This document shows, piece after piece, positions 45,875 through 57,903 of a DNA stretch of 64,000 nt (position 1 is its first letter; every line of letters starts with the position of its first letter). The DNA lies in NCBI GenBank assembly GCA_000697055.1, contig JNDT01002371.1:248001-312000 (forward strand), in the 5' to 3' direction. The notes below the pieces were generated by a model. It was not told the DNA's origin, made no database searches, and saw only the letters and a program-made list of their open reading frames with translations. The stretch is from Saksenaea vasiformis B4078 (Eukaryota > Mucoromycota > Mucoromycetes > Mucorales > Saksenaeaceae). The position numbers and the translations under genes are program-made.

Positions 45875-48800
45875 ATGGATAGTAATCGTGACCGACGAAA
45901 GAGTCAGGAGACCCCCACCGGTTACGAAGAGGGCGCTCATGTCACAGAGAGGAGCATGCAGCAGTCAAGTGTTGAAACAAAACGCTACTCCGTTAAGTCG
46001 TTTGAATCCACCGAGACCCAAATGAAACGCAAATCAACCGAGAAAACCATTCCTGCAGACTTGCTACCTGATCTCCACAACCTCCTCGGTAATGAAAGCG
46101 GAATACAAACTGAGTTGGCAACTCATGATGCTGAGGCCGTGAGAGAAGCTGTCTCGGCTGCGGAAAGCAAACCGGTGATGAGCAAAAAGTTTAACGAGAT
46201 GGCTGGCGCGTTTCCTTTTACACGTCGCACACCAGAGTGGTATCGTACTGGTTGGACTGCCTTGGCAAATTCAAGCAGCTTTCCCCCAAAGAAAGGAGAC
46301 TGGTTAGACGATCTGATACCTGAAGGATTTTATGGTGAATGGTGGCATAATGCAGCTGTGCTAGTCATAACAGCTTTCACTGCATGGTTTCTCGGAAAGA
46401 CTGGTGCTGGGATTGGCACATTAATATTAGGCTGCCTATTTCTAGGTAAGCTCTTTTTTATTGCCTATCGTTTGGATGCACGCATGTGGCAAGAGAACCG
46501 TTGTGTTAATACCAAGATAAATCATGTAATCTGTAGCGACGTATTATCAGCTTAGTCTACGCCGATTCCGTCACAATGCCCGAGATGATATACAACGAGA
46601 ACTAGCAAAAATGTCAATCGAGGATGATGAGGAACCTGTGGAATGGATGAATAGCTTTTTACAAAAGTTCTGGCTTATTTTTGAGCCAGTGATGAGTGCC
46701 CTTGTCGTAGAGAATTTGGATACGTATATCACAGACTATCTCCCTGGATTTCTGGATTCAGTTCGTCTCACAACATTTACGCTGGGAACAAAACCGTTTC
46801 GAATTGAAAGCGTAAAAACATACCAAAACACTGATCCTGACACGGTGGTAAAATCATAGCTCATACTTCGCAGAATTCCAATAACCACCTTCCCCCTTCT
46901 TCTTTCTTAATTAGTGCATGGACTGGCGCGTGTCTTTCACACCTGGAGATCTTACTGATCTAACGCTCGAAGAACGCAATCTTCAGGTGAATCCAAAGAT
47001 TGTGATGACGATTCGCGTAGGGAAGGGATCAGTGGGTGCAGGCTTTCCTGTTCTGGTAGAAGATATGAGCTTCTCTGGTCATATGCGCGTCAAAATCCGA
47101 TTTATGGACAAGTTTCCATATGCTAAAGTTCTTGAAGCATGTTTCCTTGAGAAACCTAGCTTTGATTATGTCTGCAAGCCATTAGGAACTGATTCGTTTG
47201 GATTTGACGTTAATGTGGTAAGTACTGACATTACCTACGCTGTGGAAGCGAGCGCACTCGATAACAAGTGATGGCAGATTCCTGGTCTCCAGAGCTTTAT
47301 TCGCGATCAGATCCATGCTATACTCGGTCCACTGATGTATGCACCTAATGTGTTTACCTTTGATATTGACAGATTCTTCGCGGGCGAGCTTGATATCAGT
47401 AAGTATGCAAAGAGAAAAAGATCGATAGTCTAATAGTAGAATATTGTAGCTCAAGCCAATGGTGTTTTGGCTATCACTGTGTATTCGACTTCTGCCATAC
47501 GAAACGTGGATCACCTATTTGATGGAGAACCCAGTACCTACGTTCGATTTTATTTGGATCATGCGCAAGAATTGGGACGTACAAGCGTTCGCGACAAGAC
47601 ATTTGAACCGCAATGGAACGAAACTCGATTTTTGTTGCTCAATAACCTGAACGCACAGCTTTCTCTGGAACTCAGGACCCATAACCCAACAGGAAAAGAC
47701 CGGAGACTTGCGACAGCACATTTTGACCTAAGAGAATTAGATGCGGAAGATCAGAACGAGCAAGAGGATCTGTGAGAAGGCACTGCTATTTAAACCCTTT
47801 GTTCACTAACAATCAAAATTAGGACGTTGGCTCTTCTTCGTAACGGCAAACCAGTGAGCGATTTACGTGTTGATCTACATTACTTGCCTGTATCAAAGCC
47901 TATGAAGCGAGTGGATGGAACCATTGAACCTCCTGAAGAATCTAGTAAGTAACACATTATGTACAGAATACGACCCCATCTAAAACAATACCTCACAGAC
48001 TCTGGTGTACTTCGATTGACGGTGCATGAATGTCGCCAGTTAGGATCGAACCGTTTCGGTTCCTCGCGACTTAGCCCCTACGTGCGTGTCATTATCAATG
48101 GCACGGAGAAAATGAAGACTCCGGTTGCCAAACGCAACGCAGAACCAAAATACGAGCAGGCGAGTGAAGTGATGGCTCTTGACCGTTCGCAAGTCTATCT
48201 GCGTGTAGAGGTTAGAGATGACAGTAAAACAGAGGAGGATAATATCGTGGGTATCTGGACTTCATACTTGAACGATATGATGCGACTGCAAGAAAACCAA
48301 GACTTTTGGTGGAAGCTTAAGCTCAATGACGAGGAGGTTGGAGAAATTCGACTGAGCGCTCAATGGAAACCAGTTGTCATGACAGGCTTTGCTGAAAGTC
48401 TGGGTAGTCACGGATACGAAGGTGAGACGACAGCGAGACTAGATACTTGGAACTTTTTATTCAGCATTGACGTATTGTAGAACCACCTATTGGTGTTATT
48501 CGATTTGCATTCTGGGAAGCACAGAAATTACGCAATGTGGAAAACGTTGCAGGAAAGTCAGATCCCTATGTGCGTGTTATGTCGGGAAGTCAAATCCGTA
48601 CACGTACTGAAGTCGTTGATAATAACCTGAATCCGGAATGGGGAGAGATACATTATGTGCCAGTCCACTCTCTCAAGGAGAATCTTGTGCTAGAAATCAT
48701 GGATTGGAATGCAAAGACGAAAGACAGAACTTTAGGTTTCACTGAGGTCAGAACAGCTGATCTTGCACGGCAACGCATTGGAGATCAAAGCGTGGATCCC

Positions 48801-50783
48801 GATATTTGGTATGAATCAACCGGTCACAAAATCGATCAGTAAGCTCTTCTTCAACTTTGCCTAACAGCACAACTAACGCTGCTGATAATAGATGGGCACC
48901 ACTTCGTTCGGCTGACAGACGTCCAGCCAAAGGAGAGCTTCGTTATAGCGCCGAGTTTATTCCCGCTATGGCTCTACCCCGTTCAGATGCCGTTGTGGAA
49001 GAAGCTACTGGAGAATCTACAGCTGATATCTCAGTTACAGGACCGCTTAAAGACCTCCATGGTTCATTCATCAAATATACTCCAGACGATATGATCGACC
49101 TCTCGTCCTACCGCAGTGGCATTATTCGTATCCGGATCCACGAGGTCCAACTTGTGCATCATGCCTATGCATACTGCCACGTGCTTGTCGATAGCCTCTC
49201 ACCGCAATATAAAACAGCGAAGCTGCGAGGACAGACATTGACGTTTGACGAGCAGCTGGATGCTTTTGTGAAGGAGGCTGATTTTTCACGTGTGGCTATC
49301 GAGGTCAAACCAGGCCATGCAAGCGAAAAAGAGGATAAGAAGTTAGGATACTGGGTTGATGCCACAAATAATATCATCCGGCATATCCAGACATCTCGCC
49401 GCCAAGGAAAGAAAGGATACGACGATGATGGGGAATGGTTCCCTTTGCTGGACGCAGATGGGCCTGCACGAATTCGTCTCAGCTTTGACTACATCCCATT
49501 GGCAAACTTTACTCTGAATCCTGACGAGAGTCTTGAAAGTAAGCTTTTTTTTTTCATTCGCTAACTGCTTGTTGTTTATGCACCATTCTGTTTTTTAGAT
49601 CAAGGAACACTGAACGTAACTCTACTTAGCGCCCAGAACCTCAAGGCGGCAGATAAATCAGGTATACTAAGAAACATTAGACGACTTGGATTCTTATGGA
49701 ACATGTTGAAAAAGGAACAAGCGATCCGTATGTGGTGTTCACTGTCAACGGAACGGTGGTGTTCAAGAGTGAGGTGATCAAGAAGACACTGAACCCTATG
49801 TGGAAAAATATGGCGTTTACTGTGCCTATTGTATGTTCTTTTTTCCACTGCGAACATTTTCCTAAGCTTCTTATAGCAATCACGAGTGACAGCAAGCTTC
49901 CGTATCGAGGTATTCGACTGGAATCAGTTCAATGGCGATGAGCCAATTGGTAAGAAAACAAAGCTTGCTATTTTTGTCGATTCTGAGATATTATAGGCTC
50001 TGGAGGAATTACGCTTCGTGGTGATATGGTCGAGAGCTTTGGAAGTCGTAATGTTGATATACCACTTGACGGAGTCTCGGGTGTGTCCGGAAGCGTGCGT
50101 GTGCGATTCCTCTGGAAGCCTCAATTGTTGGTTACGAAGAAAACGCAGACGTCTGTTCTTGGTAATGATCGCATGTATACCAGCCGCATAAGCACTTCCA
50201 GTGCGGATATGTCAGCTGAGCACAGATCATCCACTTTTGCCAAATCCACGATCTCAGATCATACAGACAATGTGTCTATGTCTAAAGATAGCTTTGACAC
50301 GGTTTCAATAGCCCCAACGATGGAAGATGTCTCCGGAAGTGGTAACACTGGCGTGCCTGGAACAGTTACAATGCATTTAATAGGTGCTCGAGGAATCCGC
50401 GGAGTTGATCGTGGTGGTACGAGCGACCCTTACGTAAGGGTACGCGTGGCGAAGGACCAGGTATACAAAACGAGAGTAATCAGCAAGTCGCTAGCGCCTG
50501 AATGGTAAACGCCAAGATACAGATTTCATTGTCTAAAGCACGTCATTGTTTCTTAAAATGCAGGAATGAGTACTTCACCTATGATGTGTCTGGGGAACCT
50601 ACCGTGTTTAATTTCAAGGTTAAGGACCATAACCGCATCAGTCAGGATGTGGACCTTGGTTACTGTCTTTGGAATATCTGGGATCTTATTTCACAGGATG
50701 CACCTAACGCAGATCAATGGGTTCCACTGTATCCTGTTGGTAGCGGCGAGCTCCACCTTCAGATACAATTTACGCAGCATTAA
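45875..50783 (+). CDS. Tricalbin-like ER-plasma membrane tether (SMP plus multiple C2 domains)
   Basis: Starts MDSNRDRRKSQETPTGYEE, with an N-terminal cytosolic region and hydrophobic hairpin (HNAAVLVITAFTAWFLG, GAGIGTLILGCLF). The SMP lipid-transfer domain spans about 46590-47400 (VEWMNSFLQKFWLIFEPVM, then MDWRVSFTPGDLTDLTLEE). C2-like units follow: 47460-47780, 47985-48390, 48490-48840 (SDPYVRVMSG, NLNPEWGE), a divergent one 49110-49510, 49600-50120 (SDPYVVFTVNG, TLNPMWKN) and 50350-50780 (TSDPYVRVRVAK, SLAPEWNEYFTYD). Six C2-like units is at the upper end for this family. S-D-P-Y motifs suggest that units 3, 5 and 6 keep calcium-binding loops, while 1, 2 and 4 look degenerate. Tricalbins hold ER to the plasma membrane and move lipids. 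Many short introns; ends at TAA 50781-50783. Confidence 0.92.
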
Positions 50784-50921
50784 TTAAAAGGCAATTTTTG
50801 GTTTAGTCATTTGACTCTTTAGTTAATAGGTCCCTGCATCAATGGTCTTGTGAGAAAAAGAAAAGAACAATTTTTTTTTCGATGTTAGTACCTCTTTCCT
50901 TCATTATTGTCATCAACAAAT

Positions 50922-51260
50922 ATGACGCTTCGCATCAAAAAAGTTTGCCCGCGCTGCCGGTGCTGTAATCTTTGCACCAAGCGACGCACGTTATTTCTTT
51001 GTTTCCCTGGCCGGGTGCGATGGCACTGTACTGTTTGCAGCCACCGCTTCGATTCTGAAACGGACATCATAACATGTGAAGAAGCAAAAGAAGACGCGAC
51101 GGTAGCACCCTTTTCCGAGAGCCATAGTTGGATTATTCGCACGGGATGGACGCCACTTCCAAATATGATGGCTTTGTTGAAGAGTGGGTGGTGTGAAAAA
51201 TGCGACAGATTTGTAAAACAGGACGAATACCATTCATGTTCTACTTGCGTTAAGACGTAA
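50922..51260 (+). CDS. Small Cys-rich zinc-ribbon-like protein, unknown
   Basis: ATG at 50922 opens an uninterrupted 112-codon frame: MTLRIKKVCPRCRCCNLCT, then RWHCTVCSHRF, GWCEKCDRFVKQ and HSCSTCVKT at the end. Four C-x2-C pairs (CPRC, CTVC, CEKC, CSTC) would bind two zinc ions, as in ribbon or double-finger folds. No family recognised. It starts about 140 bp after tricalbin on the same strand, so it has its own short promoter (with a T run at 50871-50879). Confidence 0.5.
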   Translation: MTLRIKKVCPRCRCCNLCTKRRTLFLCFPGRVRWHCTVCSHRFDSETDIITCEEAKEDATVAPFSESHSWIIRTGWTPLPNMMALLKSGWCEKCDRFVKQDEYHSCSTCVKT

Positions 51261-52289
51261 CCAGATTTGTACAATCTTACTGCTCTAAGCGATTGATTGA
51301 TACGTATTCCTATGTAATTGAGCCCAGCCTCTTGTTTAAACCCTGTAAACCCAACATACTTATAATTGAGAATAATTCCACAAACTGTGGATTTGATTCT
51401 CAAGCAAATTGATAAACATTGGGTAAAATCATAATTATTGGCCGTGACAAATTGGCGATAAGATGAATAGAGCCGTAAGAGATGTCATCCAACCTTCACA
51501 ACGACCTGTACGGTCGAAGGCAATGTCACACGCTATGTATTTGGTTGTCACTATCATTGTGAAGGTGGTGGTGTCATAGCATTATAGGGCAAGAAGCCTG
51601 AAGTTGCCACTCATACATCAAGGAACGATAAGAACAAAAATTCAGGAGAAACTTTCCAAGTTGACGCGTGTCAGCTGGTCCTGGTCAAACCGCCAATCAG
51701 CGCGAACATTCAATCTTTGACTTTAAAAAAACCGCTTTCTTCTATATCCCGCTGGCAAATGAGCAATCCAACAGATACTGAGCAAGTGACAAAGAAGAGC
51801 TTGATATGTTTCAAAAGGTCTCCTGAATCTAGCCATTTTAGGTAGCCGATTTCTCGTAGAAAAGTAATTTAACATCCAACCTGTGAGGTCGTCTTTAGAG
51901 TTTACTGTTTGCATAGACGGCTTTACAACCATGACTGTTGAGAGGAGCTCATGTCTTTGCATTGGAGTCACAGAGTTTGGTGACTAGGTCACAAAACAGC
52001 GTGGCCAAATTGTAGCACTGTCGGTAAAGTCTATCAATCATCGGTATATTACCACCGAGGGGGATCTTTTTCTACTCGGAAATTCCCTGCCCCGAGTTTT
52101 CTATGATCCACTGTCGAGGAATACTGCATTAAGAGAAGTTGAGCACAGTCAATGATTCCAGAAGCAGAGTCCAGATTTCTAATGCAACCATAGAATACAG
52201 AATGTTCTCACTATGGAACAACTAGTCAATCAGGAACTCATTTTCCATGGCGTCTATCAGCATTTATGGACAACTTTCTTATAATGCTT
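51261..52289. other. Intergenic stretch
   Basis: No gene supported. ACCTTCACAA near 51492 and TTGTGAAGGT near 51558 form an inverted pair about 60 bp apart that could fold, but nothing else supports an RNA gene. Confidence 0.4.
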
Positions 52290-52530
52290 ATTGAATCAGT
52301 TTTTACGCTGCACTGGATAAAACTTGCCTTTCTGAAGAGTCAAGTCTGCGCTAAAGAAGAATCGAATATGCAGTGGTTTGTACATCCATTTTTCATCAGA
52401 AAATTAACCAACTTACACGAACTTGGTCTCTCCAGTGGACGCAACGTTTATTCGAGCAGCATAAAAAATCAATTGGATGAACGTAAAAATATGTACTTCA
52501 AAACGCATACTTCATCTGAAAGAGAACGAT
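52290..52530 (+). repeat. Dispersed repeat family A, longest copy
   Basis: This is the only copy containing both the proximal segment (GAGTCAAGTCTGCGCTAAAG, GAATATGCAGTGGTT; compare 18020-18110) and the distal segment (GAGCAGCATAAAAAATCAAT, TGTACTTCAAAACGCATAC; compare 37730-37840). A frame of 88 codons (52266-52532) spans it, which hints that the repeat derives from a coding element. It lies just upstream of the Fanzor relic. Confidence 0.6.
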
Positions 52531-52619
52531 GAGTATATGATGCTGACAATAACCACAAAGCCCCTGCCGATCTAAAATGATTTACTTTATATTCCATAAC
52601 AATTGCAACGCTATAAGAG

Positions 52620-54600
52620 GTATTAGCTGCGACAAACCTAACGGAAGAGGAGGCGAGGGCCGTTAAGAGTATTTATTATTCCGTGAAGTCGTATGTCCTG
52701 TGCTCTACATGTGAGAAAGAGTTGGACAAAGTCCTCTCCTAAATGTTGCCTTTGTTTTACTTGCAGACACGCATTTCCATGCTATCGGATCAGAAAAATT
52801 CTCCCGTTGCATGTGACATTCTGTCAGACTTTCCTCTCTGTATACGCTTATACTGAACCTGACCACAATATTTGAAAATAAAACAGACAGTTTTGGCGTG
52901 GTTGCTCCCGATCGGGAAATAATCACGACAATTTCAGATGCGACTCACCTTCCGGAGCGGGTTCTTACAGCTTTTTCGATCTGGCGTTCCATAGATATCG
53001 CATCTGTCGGTGACACGGGCTTAAATTTGATAACGTAATTAAAGATAACTTCTCATGGAATGGCAGTTCTACAAGGGGCATTTCTCAGTAGCCGGGAGAT
53101 GATAGCGGCACGGTACGACAGGGGAAAAATCAAGACCACTAATGCGTCAGCAGAGGTCGTCAAAGATGCTTAAAAGAAAACCCAAAGTCCTGATGCTCAG
53201 GAAATTATAAGGCAGTTGAAAAATACTACTGGAAAGATGAATAAGGCAATCAACGATTTATCCGAAAGCATCAAGAGAAAGACGGCATAAATCGATGGGC
53301 TAATATCAAGATAAAGTGGATGTGTCGACTCTGATTTCCGAGCGGCGACTACTAAAAGCAATAGACCGGGAGAAAAATCAGAGGATCTGAGTGAACGTAG
53401 AAAACTGTTCAACTGCTCACACAAGAGAAACTATATAAGTATAATCCTAGATAAATTCATTTGTTTATGTAGGCACTGATCAAGGAAAATCAGAAGATGG
53501 TTCAAAGAAACGAAAGCAGGCTCGTAAAAACACTAAGTAGAGCAAACAAAAATGACAGAAATTACGAGAGAACGGTACCGATGCCGCTGACTGATGGTCA
53601 GGGTGGAGAAGGCTTTATCTTTGCAGAGACAGACACGGTGTCATCACGATGTCAGAAATTGCTCCATTACCCGTGAATGGTTAGAGTACCACTTAAGACT
53701 GTACAATCGTTTCAGTCCGCTTGAGAAGGATGATAATACTAAAGACCATACGGATAACTTCCAGATAATACCAACGCCATTTCGAATCGCTGCGAAGAAG
53801 ATCCACGACAAAACTTTCACAAAGAGAATAAGAAAGCAGAGAGAATATCGGAAACGGGCAAGGGAGAAATGGTTATGCGATAGACATTCACTTGTGACTA
53901 CAGACAGTAGAAACAGAGAAGAGCGTTCGCCCCGTCGAAAAGAACCTTTCGAAGCAGAGTGTCAAACAGGCAAGCAAGATCAACGATCTGGTTCAATCTC
54001 GAAAGGCAATCTGCCCTTTTGTACAACTGCTAGAAATGTTGCCAGATCTTCTTACATAGGTTGCAAGTGATGGAAAGACAGAACTACGAGACCTTTACGT
54101 ACACCCCAAGGCAGCGAAGAAATGGAAAAGAACATGGAAGATTTATACGAAGAAAGCATATGCGGTCGCCACGTCAGGAGAGCGTCGGAATTTGAAGGCT
54201 TCGCAAAGCAAAAGGAATCTTTTGGTACTGTGCATTGACAACGCTGGGACTGGGGTGGGCTCCACAACTGGTGGCCATCTTCGCCGTGGAGGCAAGAAAC
54301 TGCGATGTCAGCACATGCGGTACACCTGCATCCGTATCACAAATGAATATTGCAGTTCCAAGCTATGTCCGTATTACTTCCAATTGGTATCGCACTTCGA
54401 GAAGCGGAAAAAAAATGGAAAGCTTACGATTAATCGTGGCAGCGTGACATGCATGAATACCGAGAGTTCCAAGCACCGAAAATGCGGTACGCCACGAGAG
54501 GCTATGATAGCAACGCGGCTATAAATATCGCTTTAGCTGGAGTCAGCGTGATCTTATCAGAAAAAACTATGAATCCGCCTTTTTTGCCAAAATAGGATGC
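52620..54600 (+). pseudogene. Degraded Fanzor (eukaryotic TnpB-like RNA-guided nuclease) gene
   Basis: Reading through stops and frame shifts gives, in order: LTEEEARAVKSIYYSVKSY with CSTCEKELDKV (52630-52740); LPERVLTAFSIWRSIDIAS then GMAVLQGAFLSSREMIAAR (52940-53160), with at least one stop; a Lys/Glu coiled region; DGQGGEGFIFAETDT followed in another frame by GVITMSEIAPLPVN (RuvC-I-like Asp region, about 53600-53680); WLEYHLRLYNRFSPLEKDD; PTPFRIAAKKIHDKTFTKR; LYVHPKAAKKWKRTWKIY; then VLCIDNAGTGVGS, HLRRGGKKLRCQHMRY, RITNEYCSSKLCPYYF, SVTCMN, and after a frame shift RGYDSNAAINIALAG. The last blocks match the RuvC-III/zinc-finger end of Mucoromycota Fanzor proteins: R-T-S-K-x-C-x-x-C is eroded (second Cys is Tyr), and R-D-x-N-A-A-x-N-I appears as R-G-Y-D-S-N-A-A-I-N-I. 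Clearly inactive. Confidence 0.7.
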
Positions 54601-56409
54601 CAGAGAACACATCCTGGATGTCAATGTATATTACTCGTTCCTACGTCATCCCGGAAGGGGGGGGGGGTGCGGTGGGGATGTCTTTCAGCGGCAGAATACG
54701 CTGTGAGTTGAAGAAATCTACAATGCGCTGCGACATACCTAACAATTATACTACTTTATCCTTCCTCTCTTGCTCTTGAAATCCTTCTGGTGCGTCGGTT
54801 AATTCGAGCCAGAGTAACAATTAATTCGATAGTTCGATACCAGCGTTGTATCTTGATGTAAATATCTGTCTGGAGGTGCAGCCTTTCAGAGCCGGATAAT
54901 CATTGTCGGCTCTGATGGACACTCCGGAGTCGGTCTTTCTATATTGTAACGGAAGTTGACGATCTAACAATTTCCCGACAACCTAACTGATTGTTCATCC
55001 GAGCTACGGGCTAATAATAGATTGCACGGACACACCATGATCGACAAGCAGTAAAATTCGCAGTATTGCCAACCATGATGTATGTAGATCCACTACTGAT
55101 TTACATGTTATATCATTGGTCATAGCTACCCCTTCTTCAAACGATATTGTTTCTTGAACTCAACATGATTTCACTGCGATACTGTGCCTCTGACGTCCTT
55201 CGAAATGTAGCCGGATTGGTAGATCCTCAGCTGTAATTAGATTTTTCTTACCACATGGTCATTCGTGACAGCACATGTCTACTACAAATCGAATTTTATT
55301 ATAGTCAGCTACGTTATTCTTAGCACAGTTCTCCATAGTAGAATGTTGTTAAATGAGATGATGAATCGTATTACGTATGTGCTACGGCGGGCCAGATATG
55401 ACGCTGTTTCTTTTTTAGTTTTACATTGCGATATGCAGATCGAACTACTGCGAAGACCTTTCCTATATATATGATCACCTTCAAGAAATAGAAACAAATA
55501 TATATATATATATATATAAAAGCTGAGAAAAGTAATCGTTTGCCTTGCGGGGTAAGAAAGAAATAACAGAAAAAGTTGCAGAAAATTGTTGGGAAGTGAC
55601 AGTTGGAAGTACCCCGCTACCGAAAAGTGAAAAAAAAAACAAGAAAAGAAGAGAAAAAAATTATCTAAACCTGGAATAGATCGTACCATAGAAATGCCAC
55701 TGTATCGTGAATAAGGAAAAGAGTAAACGAACAGAGTGGTGTTTAACAGGTGAAAGGTTTAAATAAAACGAGTTGCTGCATCTCCTTTCGGTGTATCTAT
55801 GCCCTTTTTGTCTAGAACATCTTTTTTCGGACAGGAAATTTCTCGGTGTTCTTTTCAGACGTTGATGTTGGCTTACCGAACAGAAAGGTTAATCCGCTCC
55901 GCCACGGATCGCCCCGCCAGCTCGTGGCATTGCATCTTCTACGTTTGGATTCACACATTCCCATGGCAATCGTAACAGGATCAAAACCTTATATCTATCT
56001 GTTTTTCTTAGCATATGGTACCAAACATGTCAATAAAAAACTGTCAAATAGTGAACATAAGGACTGGAAAATGTTACAAAACTAAAAATACCGAAGGAAA
56101 GAACGAATGGGACCCAGATCGATTAAATTTGGTGTGACAGGTGGTAATTGGCGATGTTTGATTGATGGTTGCACAGACGCATTTTATATGCTGTCCCTGG
56201 AATTGTTTAATACCATAAACAGTAATATACTCAGTACTGTGTAAGGTAGTTTTACCAAGATTTGGCGGTATTCTGGCACAAAAATTAAAAATGGGATTTC
56301 GCACGTTACAAAAAAAGGCAATCTAACATCGAATGCGGCACTTGTTTTCAATCTCCTAGTAAAAAAATTTACTTTTTACCATTGATGGTGCTTAAAAATA
56401 GGTCACCGT
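54601..56409. other. Gene-poor stretch
   Basis: No gene supported. It contains an 11-G run (54657-54667), an AT dinucleotide microsatellite (55499-55518) and A-rich tracts near 55628-55661. Confidence 0.5.
55499..55518. repeat. AT dinucleotide microsatellite
   Basis: About ten AT units in a row within an AT-rich flank. Confidence 0.8.
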
Positions 56410-56511
56410 TTGGGTATATAGACATCCGATTTTTCGACACGCTTTTCTTTCCTTCCAACACTTTTCCTTTTCACTACTTTCCTTTCCTTTCCTTCAACTT
56501 CCTCTTCCAAC
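56410..56511 (+). promoter_or_regulatory. Core promoter and CT-rich leader of the chitin deacetylase gene
   Basis: A TATATA-like element (GGGTATATAGACAT, about 56412-56425) lies about 90 bp before the ATG, and a long TTTCC/CTTCC pyrimidine tract (56445-56508) runs up to it. TATA plus a CT-rich start region is the usual layout of strongly expressed fungal genes. Confidence 0.6.
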
Positions 56512-57903
56512 ATGCTCTGGAAGCCTACTGCCACCGTTCTTTCCATCGCTGCAGCTATTGCTGGTGTCAATGCCGCTCTCCCGACGAACTTCACCAGTCC
56601 CACCGATCCTACTAAAATCGTGATTCCTGACATCCCTCAAACGACTTCAATGGATCCCACTCAGCAGTGCAATCCCTACGCAGCACCCTCTGTGCCAATC
56701 AACGCAGCAGAGTGGCCCGAACTCTGGAAGGTCGCCACTAGCAACGGAATGAACAAGACCGCTGAATTCCAGAAGCTTTACAACTCTATTGATTGGTCAA
56801 AGGCACCCAACATCCCCGTCCGCAAGCTGACTCCTGATAAGGCTCTTGATACCACCGGCTACAACACCGCCGCTGATCCTGATTGTTGGTGGACAGCCAG
56901 TCAGTGTGTCAAGCCTAAGCTTGCAGGCGTGAACCCTGATATCTACAAGTGTCCCGAGCCCGAGACTTTCGGTCTGGTAAGTTTTTTTTAAAGAAAAGAG
57001 AAAAAAAAAAGAAAACTCATCTGCTCCTTTCTAGACCTTCGATGACGGTCCCAACTGCTCTCACAATGCCTTCTATGACTACTTGGCTCAGAACAAGCAG
57101 AAGGCATCCATGTTCTACATTGGTACCAACGTCATTGCCTGGCCCTACGGTGCCATGCGTGGTGTTAAGGACGGCCATCACTTGGCTGGTCACACCTGGT
57201 CCCACAGCTTGATGACCACCCTCACCAACGAGGAAATTCTTGCAGAACTCTACTACACCCAGAAGGCTATCAAGTATGTCACTGGTGTTACCCCCATGCA
57301 CTGGCGTCCCGTAAGTTCTTCCCCCAAAAAAATTTACAATTTGAATGGCGATTTTTAACATGCGCTTTTCCCTGACAGGCTCAAGGTGACTTGGACGATC
57401 GTGTCCGATGGATTGCCACCCAACTGAACTTGACTGCTATTATCTGGAACCTCGATACCGATGACTGGGCTGCCAATGTTATGCCCGGTGTGACGGAGCA
57501 GACTGTTAACCAGCACTACTTGGATTTCATTGAGATGGGCAAGAATGGCACTTTCAAGACTGACGGCAACATCGTTTTGGCTCACGAGATCAACAACATG
57601 ACCATGTCTTTCGCTCTTAAGCACTACCCTGAGATCAAGAAGGCTTACAAGCATGTTGTCGATGTTGCCACCTGTATGAACATCACCCACCCTTACCTTG
57701 AGAACAATGTTGCTTTCCCTGACTTTGCCACCGCCACTAACGGCGGCTCTAGCTCTGGCTCTGGCTCTGGCTCTGCTTCTGGCTCTGGTTCCGGTAACTC
57801 TGGTTCCGCTTCCCAGAACAAGCCCGAAAACGGCGCCGCCTCCGTCGCCCTCAATGGACCTTTGTTCCTTGCCGCTTTGCTCGGTCTTTTGGTTCTTGTG
57901 TAA
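56512..57903 (+). CDS. Chitin deacetylase, secreted, GPI-anchored (carbohydrate esterase family 4)
   Basis: Three exons (56512-56976, 57035-57310, 57379-57903) encode 421 aa. A signal peptide (MLWKPTATVLSIAAAIAG) is followed by a spacer rich in NxT/S sites. The NodB domain begins GLTFDDGPNCSH (motif 1, catalytic Asp), then GHTWSHSLMTT (motif 2, metal His), HWRPAQGDLDDRVRW (motif 3), IIWNLDTDDWAANV (motif 4) and NIVLAHEINNM (motif 5). Motif 3 normally reads R-P-P-Y-G-D; here P-Y is A-Q, across an exon join. A Gly-Ser repeat (57745-57805) and a hydrophobic tail (GPLFLAALLGLLVLV) mark a GPI anchor. The enzyme converts chitin to chitosan, a major wall polymer in Mucorales. Codon choice is strongly biased to C/G-ending codons (GCC, AAG, AAC), unlike its neighbours, suggesting high expression. 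Confidence 0.95.

Follow-up and report, generated by a model that had tools for sequence, protein, structure and literature searches.

The 64-kb stretch of DNA analysed here (the window, G000:C633:248001-312000, in a genome of 38.7 Mb and 666 contigs) very probably contains an old, inactivated copy of a transposon gene that encoded a large and divergent Fanzor-like nuclease. The lineage to which it belongs has all its named members in Mucoromycota and Mortierellomycota, and its relatives are proposed to work in an RNA-guided manner. The evidence comprises the layout of the remnant, its dispersed relatives, the motifs of the encoded proteins, the elements that carry them and the noncoding sequence downstream of their stop codons.

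Layout and decay of the fossil copy

The remnant lies on the + strand, as do its pieces and the dispersed repeat described below, and occupies 52733-54595, where five protein pieces follow one another in the order expected from homology. The combination of tblastn, profile and translation revealed five in-frame stops, starting at 52814, 53036, 53171, 53288 and 54057, and showed that the reading frame changes at least four times. The initial annotation had described four protein blocks spread over changing frames with stops, and all of them were located in the order it gave: FIFAETD with the RuvC-I Asp codon at 53632-53634, ITNEYCSSKLCPYY at 54336-54377, SVTCMN at 54441-54458 and YDSNAAINIALAG at 54503-54541. 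The extent it had assigned, 52620-54600, holds for 52733-54595 and lacks support for 52620-52732, because the homology spans 52733-54595.

The first piece (52733..53299) corresponds to a segment of the N-terminal lobe and carries the first four stops; its portion 52733-53134 matched the C577 relative in tblastn (E 1e-9), and the stretch up to 53299 is covered solely in the long alignment. The second piece (53476..53634; tblastn with P0003, E 0.001) is read in a frame unlike that of the preceding segment and leads up to RuvC-I, its last residue being the conserved Asp of FIFAETD, followed by a post-RuvC-I piece (53666..53857, ITREWLEYHLRLYNRF...KQREYRKR) that matched the C360 relative (tblastn, E 4e-11). 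The fourth piece (53919..54503; tblastn E 4e-27, profile 104.6 bits) includes the stop at 54057, the GTGVGS..GHLRRGG block, the shifted glutamate (codon 54345-54347) and the first half of the zinc finger. The C-terminal piece (54479..54595), in a frame of its own, is 59% identical to the C277 relative by tblastn, reaches a profile E of 1.1e-6 and contains the RuvC-III Asp (codon 54506-54508, in RGYDSNAAINIALAG) and the final stop (54593-54595).

Codons for three catalytic residues are kept in the fossil, namely Asp of RuvC-I, the shifted Glu and Asp of RuvC-III. In its zinc finger, the second Cys has been replaced by Tyr (CPYY), and RD has become YD. The frame change between 53857 and 53919 may represent a retained intron, since copies of the subfamily termed A1 shift frame at that point too. 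For the N-terminal ~600 residues known from relatives, no significant match was found at 48000-52733.

The surroundings of the fossil showed no recognisable transposon ends. A dispersed repeat at 52282..52522, probably unrelated to it, shows 80-86% identity to at least 40 other matches (best 40 of 443 candidates). This repeat, also present at L046:1483-2588, comes in two forms, a short one of ~285 bp and a longer one that contains ~0.8 kb more in its interior. It was judged unlikely to be part of a Fanzor element, because it lies upstream of the gene in C102 and C511 and yet is absent from the C102-C110 alignment. By eye, the fossil is flanked by a C2-domain (tricalbin-like) gene at 47953-50505 and a chitin-deacetylase-like gene at 56422-57900, leaving ~6 kb of gene-poor DNA between the two.

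Relatives in the genome and in databases

Searching two relatives against the 64-kb window by tblastn returned the fossil at E 7e-25 (several pieces summed) and 4e-27. The profile that scored 104.6 bits was built from 18 database proteins, and against the six frames of 50000-56000 it gave E 1.6e-33 and 1.1e-6 in two + frames and a best E of 0.87 in the remaining four, all values being computed for those six 6-kb frames alone. A 147-aa fossil piece has 95 other matches in the genome (96 with itself), the best at E 8e-25, and a DNA search with 52540-55500 detected no genomic relative besides the query itself. A dead Fanzor-like gene copy with many relatives in the same genome, as the initial annotation had it, is confirmed by these protein matches. 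The similarity to TnpB/Fanzor profiles that it predicted appears only at one remove: four fossil pieces scanned directly against Pfam matched no TnpB/Fanzor family, so the assignment of the fossil runs via its relatives.

Some of these relatives provide the link themselves. The TnpB zinc-ribbon (TNB) model of Pfam, PF07282 (cut-off 26.3 bits), matched at least 137 places in the genome among the best 150 of 388 candidates scored, and at least six of the 96 fossil-piece places are also above its cut-off (28.5-36.1 bits), the two lists having been compared partly by eye. C634 shares 40% identity with the fossil piece (E 9e-21) and scores 28.5 bits with PF07282, while C355, C445, C652, C247 and C609 are 27-31% identical (E 2e-9 to 1e-5) and score 30.8-36.1 bits. 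By similarity, these six shared places tie the fossil most directly to TnpB.

Three subfamilies were compared, namely A1 with seven copies (pairwise DNA identity 93-99%), A2 with six (79-97%) and A3 (71-98%, five copies compared). Within subfamilies, homology mostly ends ~345-460 nt past the matched region where contigs permit, and in some A2 pairs at ~270-300. In codon comparisons, an A2 pair had dN 0.165 at dS 1.06, an A3 pair dN 0.146 at a saturated dS, and a pair including C511 dN 0.043 at dS 0.092; a dN/dS below 1 indicates that the family proteins had been under constraint. C511, an A2 copy (L055), is internally inverted, its halves broken at one point with ~660 bp between them.

The frames of C102 extend over 1,277 codons with one TAA, and the main pieces of C577 add up to 1,433 codons. 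An uninterrupted full frame was found in none of the three copies read across the whole gene (C102, C360 and C577). The idea that relatives in this genome may be active is consistent with near-identical copies and dN/dS below 1, and opposed by the broken frames of all three whole-gene copies; such activity may exist.

Two protein searches, with 11 and 27 matches, yielded 35 database relatives (P0001-P0035), none of which carries a precomputed Pfam domain. Organisms are given for five: Umbelopsis ramanniana and two Apophysomyces (Mucoromycota, with the taxonomy checked for one of the two), together with Mortierella alpina and Lunasporangiospora selenospora (Mortierellomycota). Among viral contigs, 40 pattern matches contained no relatives.

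Relation to Fanzor and TnpB

The TnpB/Fanzor superfamily has been defined by the motif D-X(125,275)-[TS][TS]-X-X-C4-X(5,50)-RD (PMC3627910). The corresponding D-X(197-276)-[TS][TS]-X-X-C4-X(11)-RD was present in all five proteins, of the 35 retrieved, that cover both regions, the gap of 276 in P0012 being a single residue beyond the published limit. Fanzors are described as having a glutamate six residues ahead of the zinc finger (PMC10711439), and a Glu six residues before the first CxxC was found in 20 of the 35 proteins; the 15 without this pattern are mostly short, and P0011 reads DEF with the following Cys absent.

According to the same source, RuvC-I of Fanzors is near-exclusively DPG (PMC10711439). 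In the 11 of 35 proteins showing the motif it is DYG throughout, which marks the lineage as a divergent relative and not a typical Fanzor1 or Fanzor2. Even in Fanzors DPG is not without exception, because SpuFz1 coordinates its metal by D383 and N385 (PMC10432273).

About six protein relatives scanned alone (including the L049 and L048 pieces, P0012, P0003, P0001, P0019 and P0007) scored at most 12.3 bits with PF07282, against the cut-off of 26.3, and the NCBIfam TnpB models matched none of five. The best PDB match of the profile was SpuFz1, weak at E 0.009, the other listed match being a penicillin-binding protein at E 1.2; a PDB search with a single full relative returned no Fanzor. Aligned by hhalign with five in-genome sequences called Fanzor1 here, the profile gave E 7e-7 and a probability of 92.

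The N-terminal half of the proteins is very long, and those of two relatives contain no Pfam domain; in P0012 a coiled coil is confidently predicted at residues about 244-363. Two structure models were of low confidence (pLDDT 48 and 59, pTM 0.25 and 0.33). The 344 matches that Foldseek gave for a low-confidence model all had E above 0.001. The matches listed by Foldseek and VIA-align were mostly microtubule, PI3K and other helical proteins, covering mainly the coiled coil, and the lack of Fanzor/TnpB among them is, with such models, not evidence of absence.

By its motifs the lineage is Fanzor-like, a divergent member of the TnpB superfamily. The label 'Fanzor-like', with no assignment to Fanzor1 or Fanzor2, was adopted because DYG, the Pfam and NCBIfam misses and the poor models stand beside the Fanzor-type motif, the Glu and the links through SpuFz1 and hhalign. 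The original identification as a Fanzor thus stands as a Fanzor-like dead copy and gives way, on account of the DYG, where a typical Fanzor1 or Fanzor2 is meant. Bao and Jurka listed Fanzor1 in Rhizopus, Phycomyces and Mucor (PMC3627910). A literature search pairing Fanzor with Mucoromycota found nothing, and in a wider one (Fanzor, Mucor, Mortierella, Rhizopus, Umbelopsis) Fanzor was absent among the matches listed.

Carrier elements

The ends of A3 elements could be defined from multiple copies. A 143-nt right-end query found 27 genomic places, 23 of which extend to query position 140-143, and the 19 right ends that were aligned finish in ...CTAGGGTTCAGATA or close variants and then pass into variable flanks, with CTG following directly in 12. 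The left-end query found 12 places. Both ends were read in seven copies (C531, C604, C270, C160, C458, C548 and C139), and in all seven the final three letters of the terminal repeats match. Since the CTG/CTG seen in five is common, the evidential weight is carried by the deviant repeats, CAG/CAG in C270 and CCAG/CCAG in C160. Agreement reaches six or more letters in four of the seven (C531, C458, C548 and C160), five in C270 and C139 and three in C604. ATACTG is the commonest terminal direct repeat, and the left ends deviate by GTAC for ATAC in two cases and TG for TA in one.

No inverted repeats were seen when the two A3 ends were compared in C531, in C604 and, with an uncertain left end, in C561; the best local matches from end to end were 16-20 letters, taken without a shuffle control. 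The notion that all elements of the family are Tc1/mariner, suggested by right ends finishing in TA, was dropped for A3, where no inverted repeat was found. In the A3 copy of C458 (L072, L083), the right flank runs ATACTGTAAGGGT and resembles the left end of the element, so two elements may adjoin end to end.

Remnants of a recombinase are associated with A3 on the strand opposite to the Fanzor-like gene. A decayed GCR1_C piece inside the A3 left end scored 36.1 bits (cut-off 23), and a decayed recombinase-region piece in C561, with a 93% identical counterpart in C282, matched NDC10_II at 26.8 bits (cut-off 26.3), NDC10_II being described as a domain of a Crypton-derived protein (PMC3212892). 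The recombinase frames are broken in the A3 copies examined. The genome contains 31 GCR1_C matches (E up to 0.01), and 11 of them coincide with A3 copies: five fall within elements whose two ends were both located, two are next to a located left end and four are 2.9-7.3 kb away from a located right end. The four distant ones, including C271 (below the cut-off), are on the expected side of the right end, and all 11 are opposed to the Fanzor gene or to the orientation implied by the left end, as compared by hand. CryptonF elements have been characterised by a YR together with GCR1_C, no inverted repeats and short (4-6 bp) direct repeats (PMC3212892). Going by these sequence features, the A3 carriers are CryptonF-type elements with an opposed, decayed recombinase. 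A 661-aa open frame at C604:100139-101485, with Crypton recombinase and GCR1_C matches, may encode a CryptonF recombinase that is still intact.

For A2, a DDE_3 transposase piece is located upstream in C110 (67.8 bits), with a 75% identical counterpart in C102, and a search for A2 inverted repeats gave nothing above shuffles.

The 3' noncoding stretch

A guide-RNA region, if conserved, had been placed next to the 3' end of the fossil, from 54600 onward. None was detectable at 54581..54880 (+): local alignments of this region with the 3' ends of five relatives were no better than shuffles, of which 45, 72, 200, 197 and 86 of 200 were at least as good. In the 3' flanks of relatives, which it had also been proposed to look at, conserved noncoding sequence, a candidate guide RNA, was found.

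This conservation far exceeds that of synonymous sites. L031 and L036 (A3) are 44% identical at third codon positions and share 166/215 (77%) of the aligned 3' noncoding positions; across the deep split within A3, noncoding identity averages 70% (42 pairs, range 64-75%). L018 and L024, with third positions 29% identical, agree at 89% over a 47-nt stretch by the stop codon. The core pattern has 11 matches in the genome, and the reversed pattern none; seven are at copies described here, that in C300 adjoins a fossil-piece match, and the others are in C214, C4 and C244.

Folding compared with shuffles gave z -6.2 for A2, -1.25 for A1 and -0.39 for A3. In the A3 consensus fold, the element end pairs with an internal segment (18 pairs), and 96.8% of cells are paired versus 96.4 in shuffles. 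The A3 covariation score was equalled by 4/500 shuffles, and pairs changing on both sides (2/43) were equalled by 215/500. Taken over the three subfamilies, conservation is therefore strong and support for structure moderate to weak. Rfam gave no match in five loci. In the left flank, the short motif AA(A/G)TA accompanies 8 of 11 A3 left ends. SpuFz1 has been reported with a 75-nt scaffold, a 14-15-nt guide and the TAM CATA (PMC10432273), and the conserved 3' stretch of the relatives looks like a candidate guide RNA.

Proposed working and alternative explanations

In living relatives, the protein would bind an RNA derived from the stretch that runs from its stop codon to the element's right end, with the 3' end of this RNA extending into flanking DNA and serving as the guide. 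The complex might then recognise a short motif left of the insertion point, for A3 likely the AA(A/G)TA left of the target, and cut empty sites, which would favour retention or spread of the element. Movement itself would be performed by another enzyme, in A3 a tyrosine recombinase of CryptonF type whose gene runs the opposite way and in A2 possibly the DDE_3 transposase. We infer RNA binding, guide use, target motif, cleavage and benefit to the element by analogy with work on TnpB and SpuFz1.

The reading of the 3' stretch as a guide RNA competes with one in which it is a DNA site of the recombinase or a terminator, which is rather unlikely. The stretch does stop exactly at the element end, the expected place of recombinase sites, and the z of -0.39 for A3 folding would suit a DNA site as well; against this, the core that is conserved sits at the stop codon, in C102 ~150 nt short of the element end, and occurs in two subfamilies that agree at 29% of coding third positions. 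The A2 stretch with its z of -6.2 speaks for RNA too, though inverted repeats in A2 could also be DNA sites. Another alternative, in which the fossil comes from a host gene that decayed or is a mosaic arisen by accident, and is no transposon relic, would accommodate the unrecognised ends around it and its DNA (52540-55500) without a detectable genomic relative, but its protein relatives are dispersed and multicopy, with defined ends in three subfamilies, and the database-protein profile matches it at E 1.6e-33; this is highly improbable.

As to ancestry, it is conceivable, if doubtful, that the proteins form a separate TnpB-derived fungal lineage with its own history outside the Fanzor1/Fanzor2 branch, resembling Fanzor through the shifted glutamate. 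The nearest PDB sequence is nevertheless a Fanzor1 (SpuFz1), hhalign ties the lineage to the in-genome copies called Fanzor1, and D383/N385 of SpuFz1 weaken the argument from the invariant DYG (D-hydrophobic-G RuvC-I), which along with the sub-cut-off Pfam scores and the two long N-terminal halves devoid of Pfam domains is what such a history would lead one to expect. With similar reserve, a distinct lineage of giant TnpB descendants in Mucoromycota/Mortierellomycota, neither Fanzor1 nor Fanzor2, may tentatively be pictured, combining a TnpB-type RuvC-I (DYG), a glutamate placed as in Fanzors and a large N-terminal half with a coiled coil; its partner would be a guide RNA whose core survived randomised synonymous sites, and its carriers would be tyrosine-recombinase (Crypton) elements in which the terminal direct repeat overlaps the motif to the left of the guide target. 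For the fossil, the preferred reading is still a dead copy of a Fanzor-like transposon gene.

Comparison with known systems

Compared with TnpB of IS200/IS605 and IS607, the lineage shares the D-hydrophobic-G RuvC-I, the zinc ribbon and a 3' RNA as the expected partner, and differs in the glutamate at the Fanzor position and in its eukaryotic host. The lineage protein is about three times the size of TnpB. The co-occurrence of DYG with the shifted glutamate bears on the origin of Fanzor from TnpB.

Fanzor1, as described for SpuFz1 of Spizellomyces punctatus (PMC3627910, PMC10432273), has the same order of Asp, shifted Glu, C4 zinc finger and RD, the same carriage by DNA transposons in many copies per genome, a candidate RNA likewise between stop codon and right end, and a short motif left of the element (CATA as the TAM of SpuFz1, AA(A/G)TA for A3). 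In contrast to these descriptions, the present lineage has a DYG RuvC-I, scores of the scanned proteins below the Pfam TNB cut-off, a long N-terminal half with a predicted coiled coil (P0012) and no inverted repeats detected for A3. As Pfam annotation seems to miss most of the lineage, RNA-guided nucleases of early-diverging fungi are probably undercounted.

With CryptonF, as outlined by Kojima and Jurka 2011 (PMC3212892), A3 has in common the YR-like and GCR1_C pieces, the lack of detected inverted repeats and the short terminal direct repeats, most often ATACTG; it differs in the decay of the recombinase in the copies seen and in the Fanzor-like gene on the other strand. With their defined ends, direct repeats and candidate guide RNA, the A3 Crypton copies offer a clean system for asking why transposons keep RNA-guided nucleases, and the worth of the fossil is as a pointer to this family.

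Other TnpB-like sequences in the genome

Several further sequences were noticed. L051 (C419:62000-68000) contains a 772-aa frame of a more classical Fanzor1 (GADPR, NEFRTSQ, WNRDVNAARNI), whose C-terminal part scores 34 bits with PF07282. Another TnpB-like family is represented by L001, L002 and L004, which show NEAYTSKSC or NEAYMSKSC together with DRDLNGA(R/Q)NI. In L052 (C335:28000-33500), a Fanzor C-terminal piece lies directly upstream of, and in one frame with, an ADA2-like protein (by eye), possibly by chance or as a fusion. C29, C33, C74 and C428 have identical PF07282 scores, each ~25.5 kb from a dispersed-repeat copy near the contig end, and stand for either a large duplicated unit or separated haplotypes. 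On the reverse strand of L063 (C577), a piece of another Fanzor (VDEFYTSQV) adjoins the A1 copy, so that elements of different Fanzor families lie side by side.
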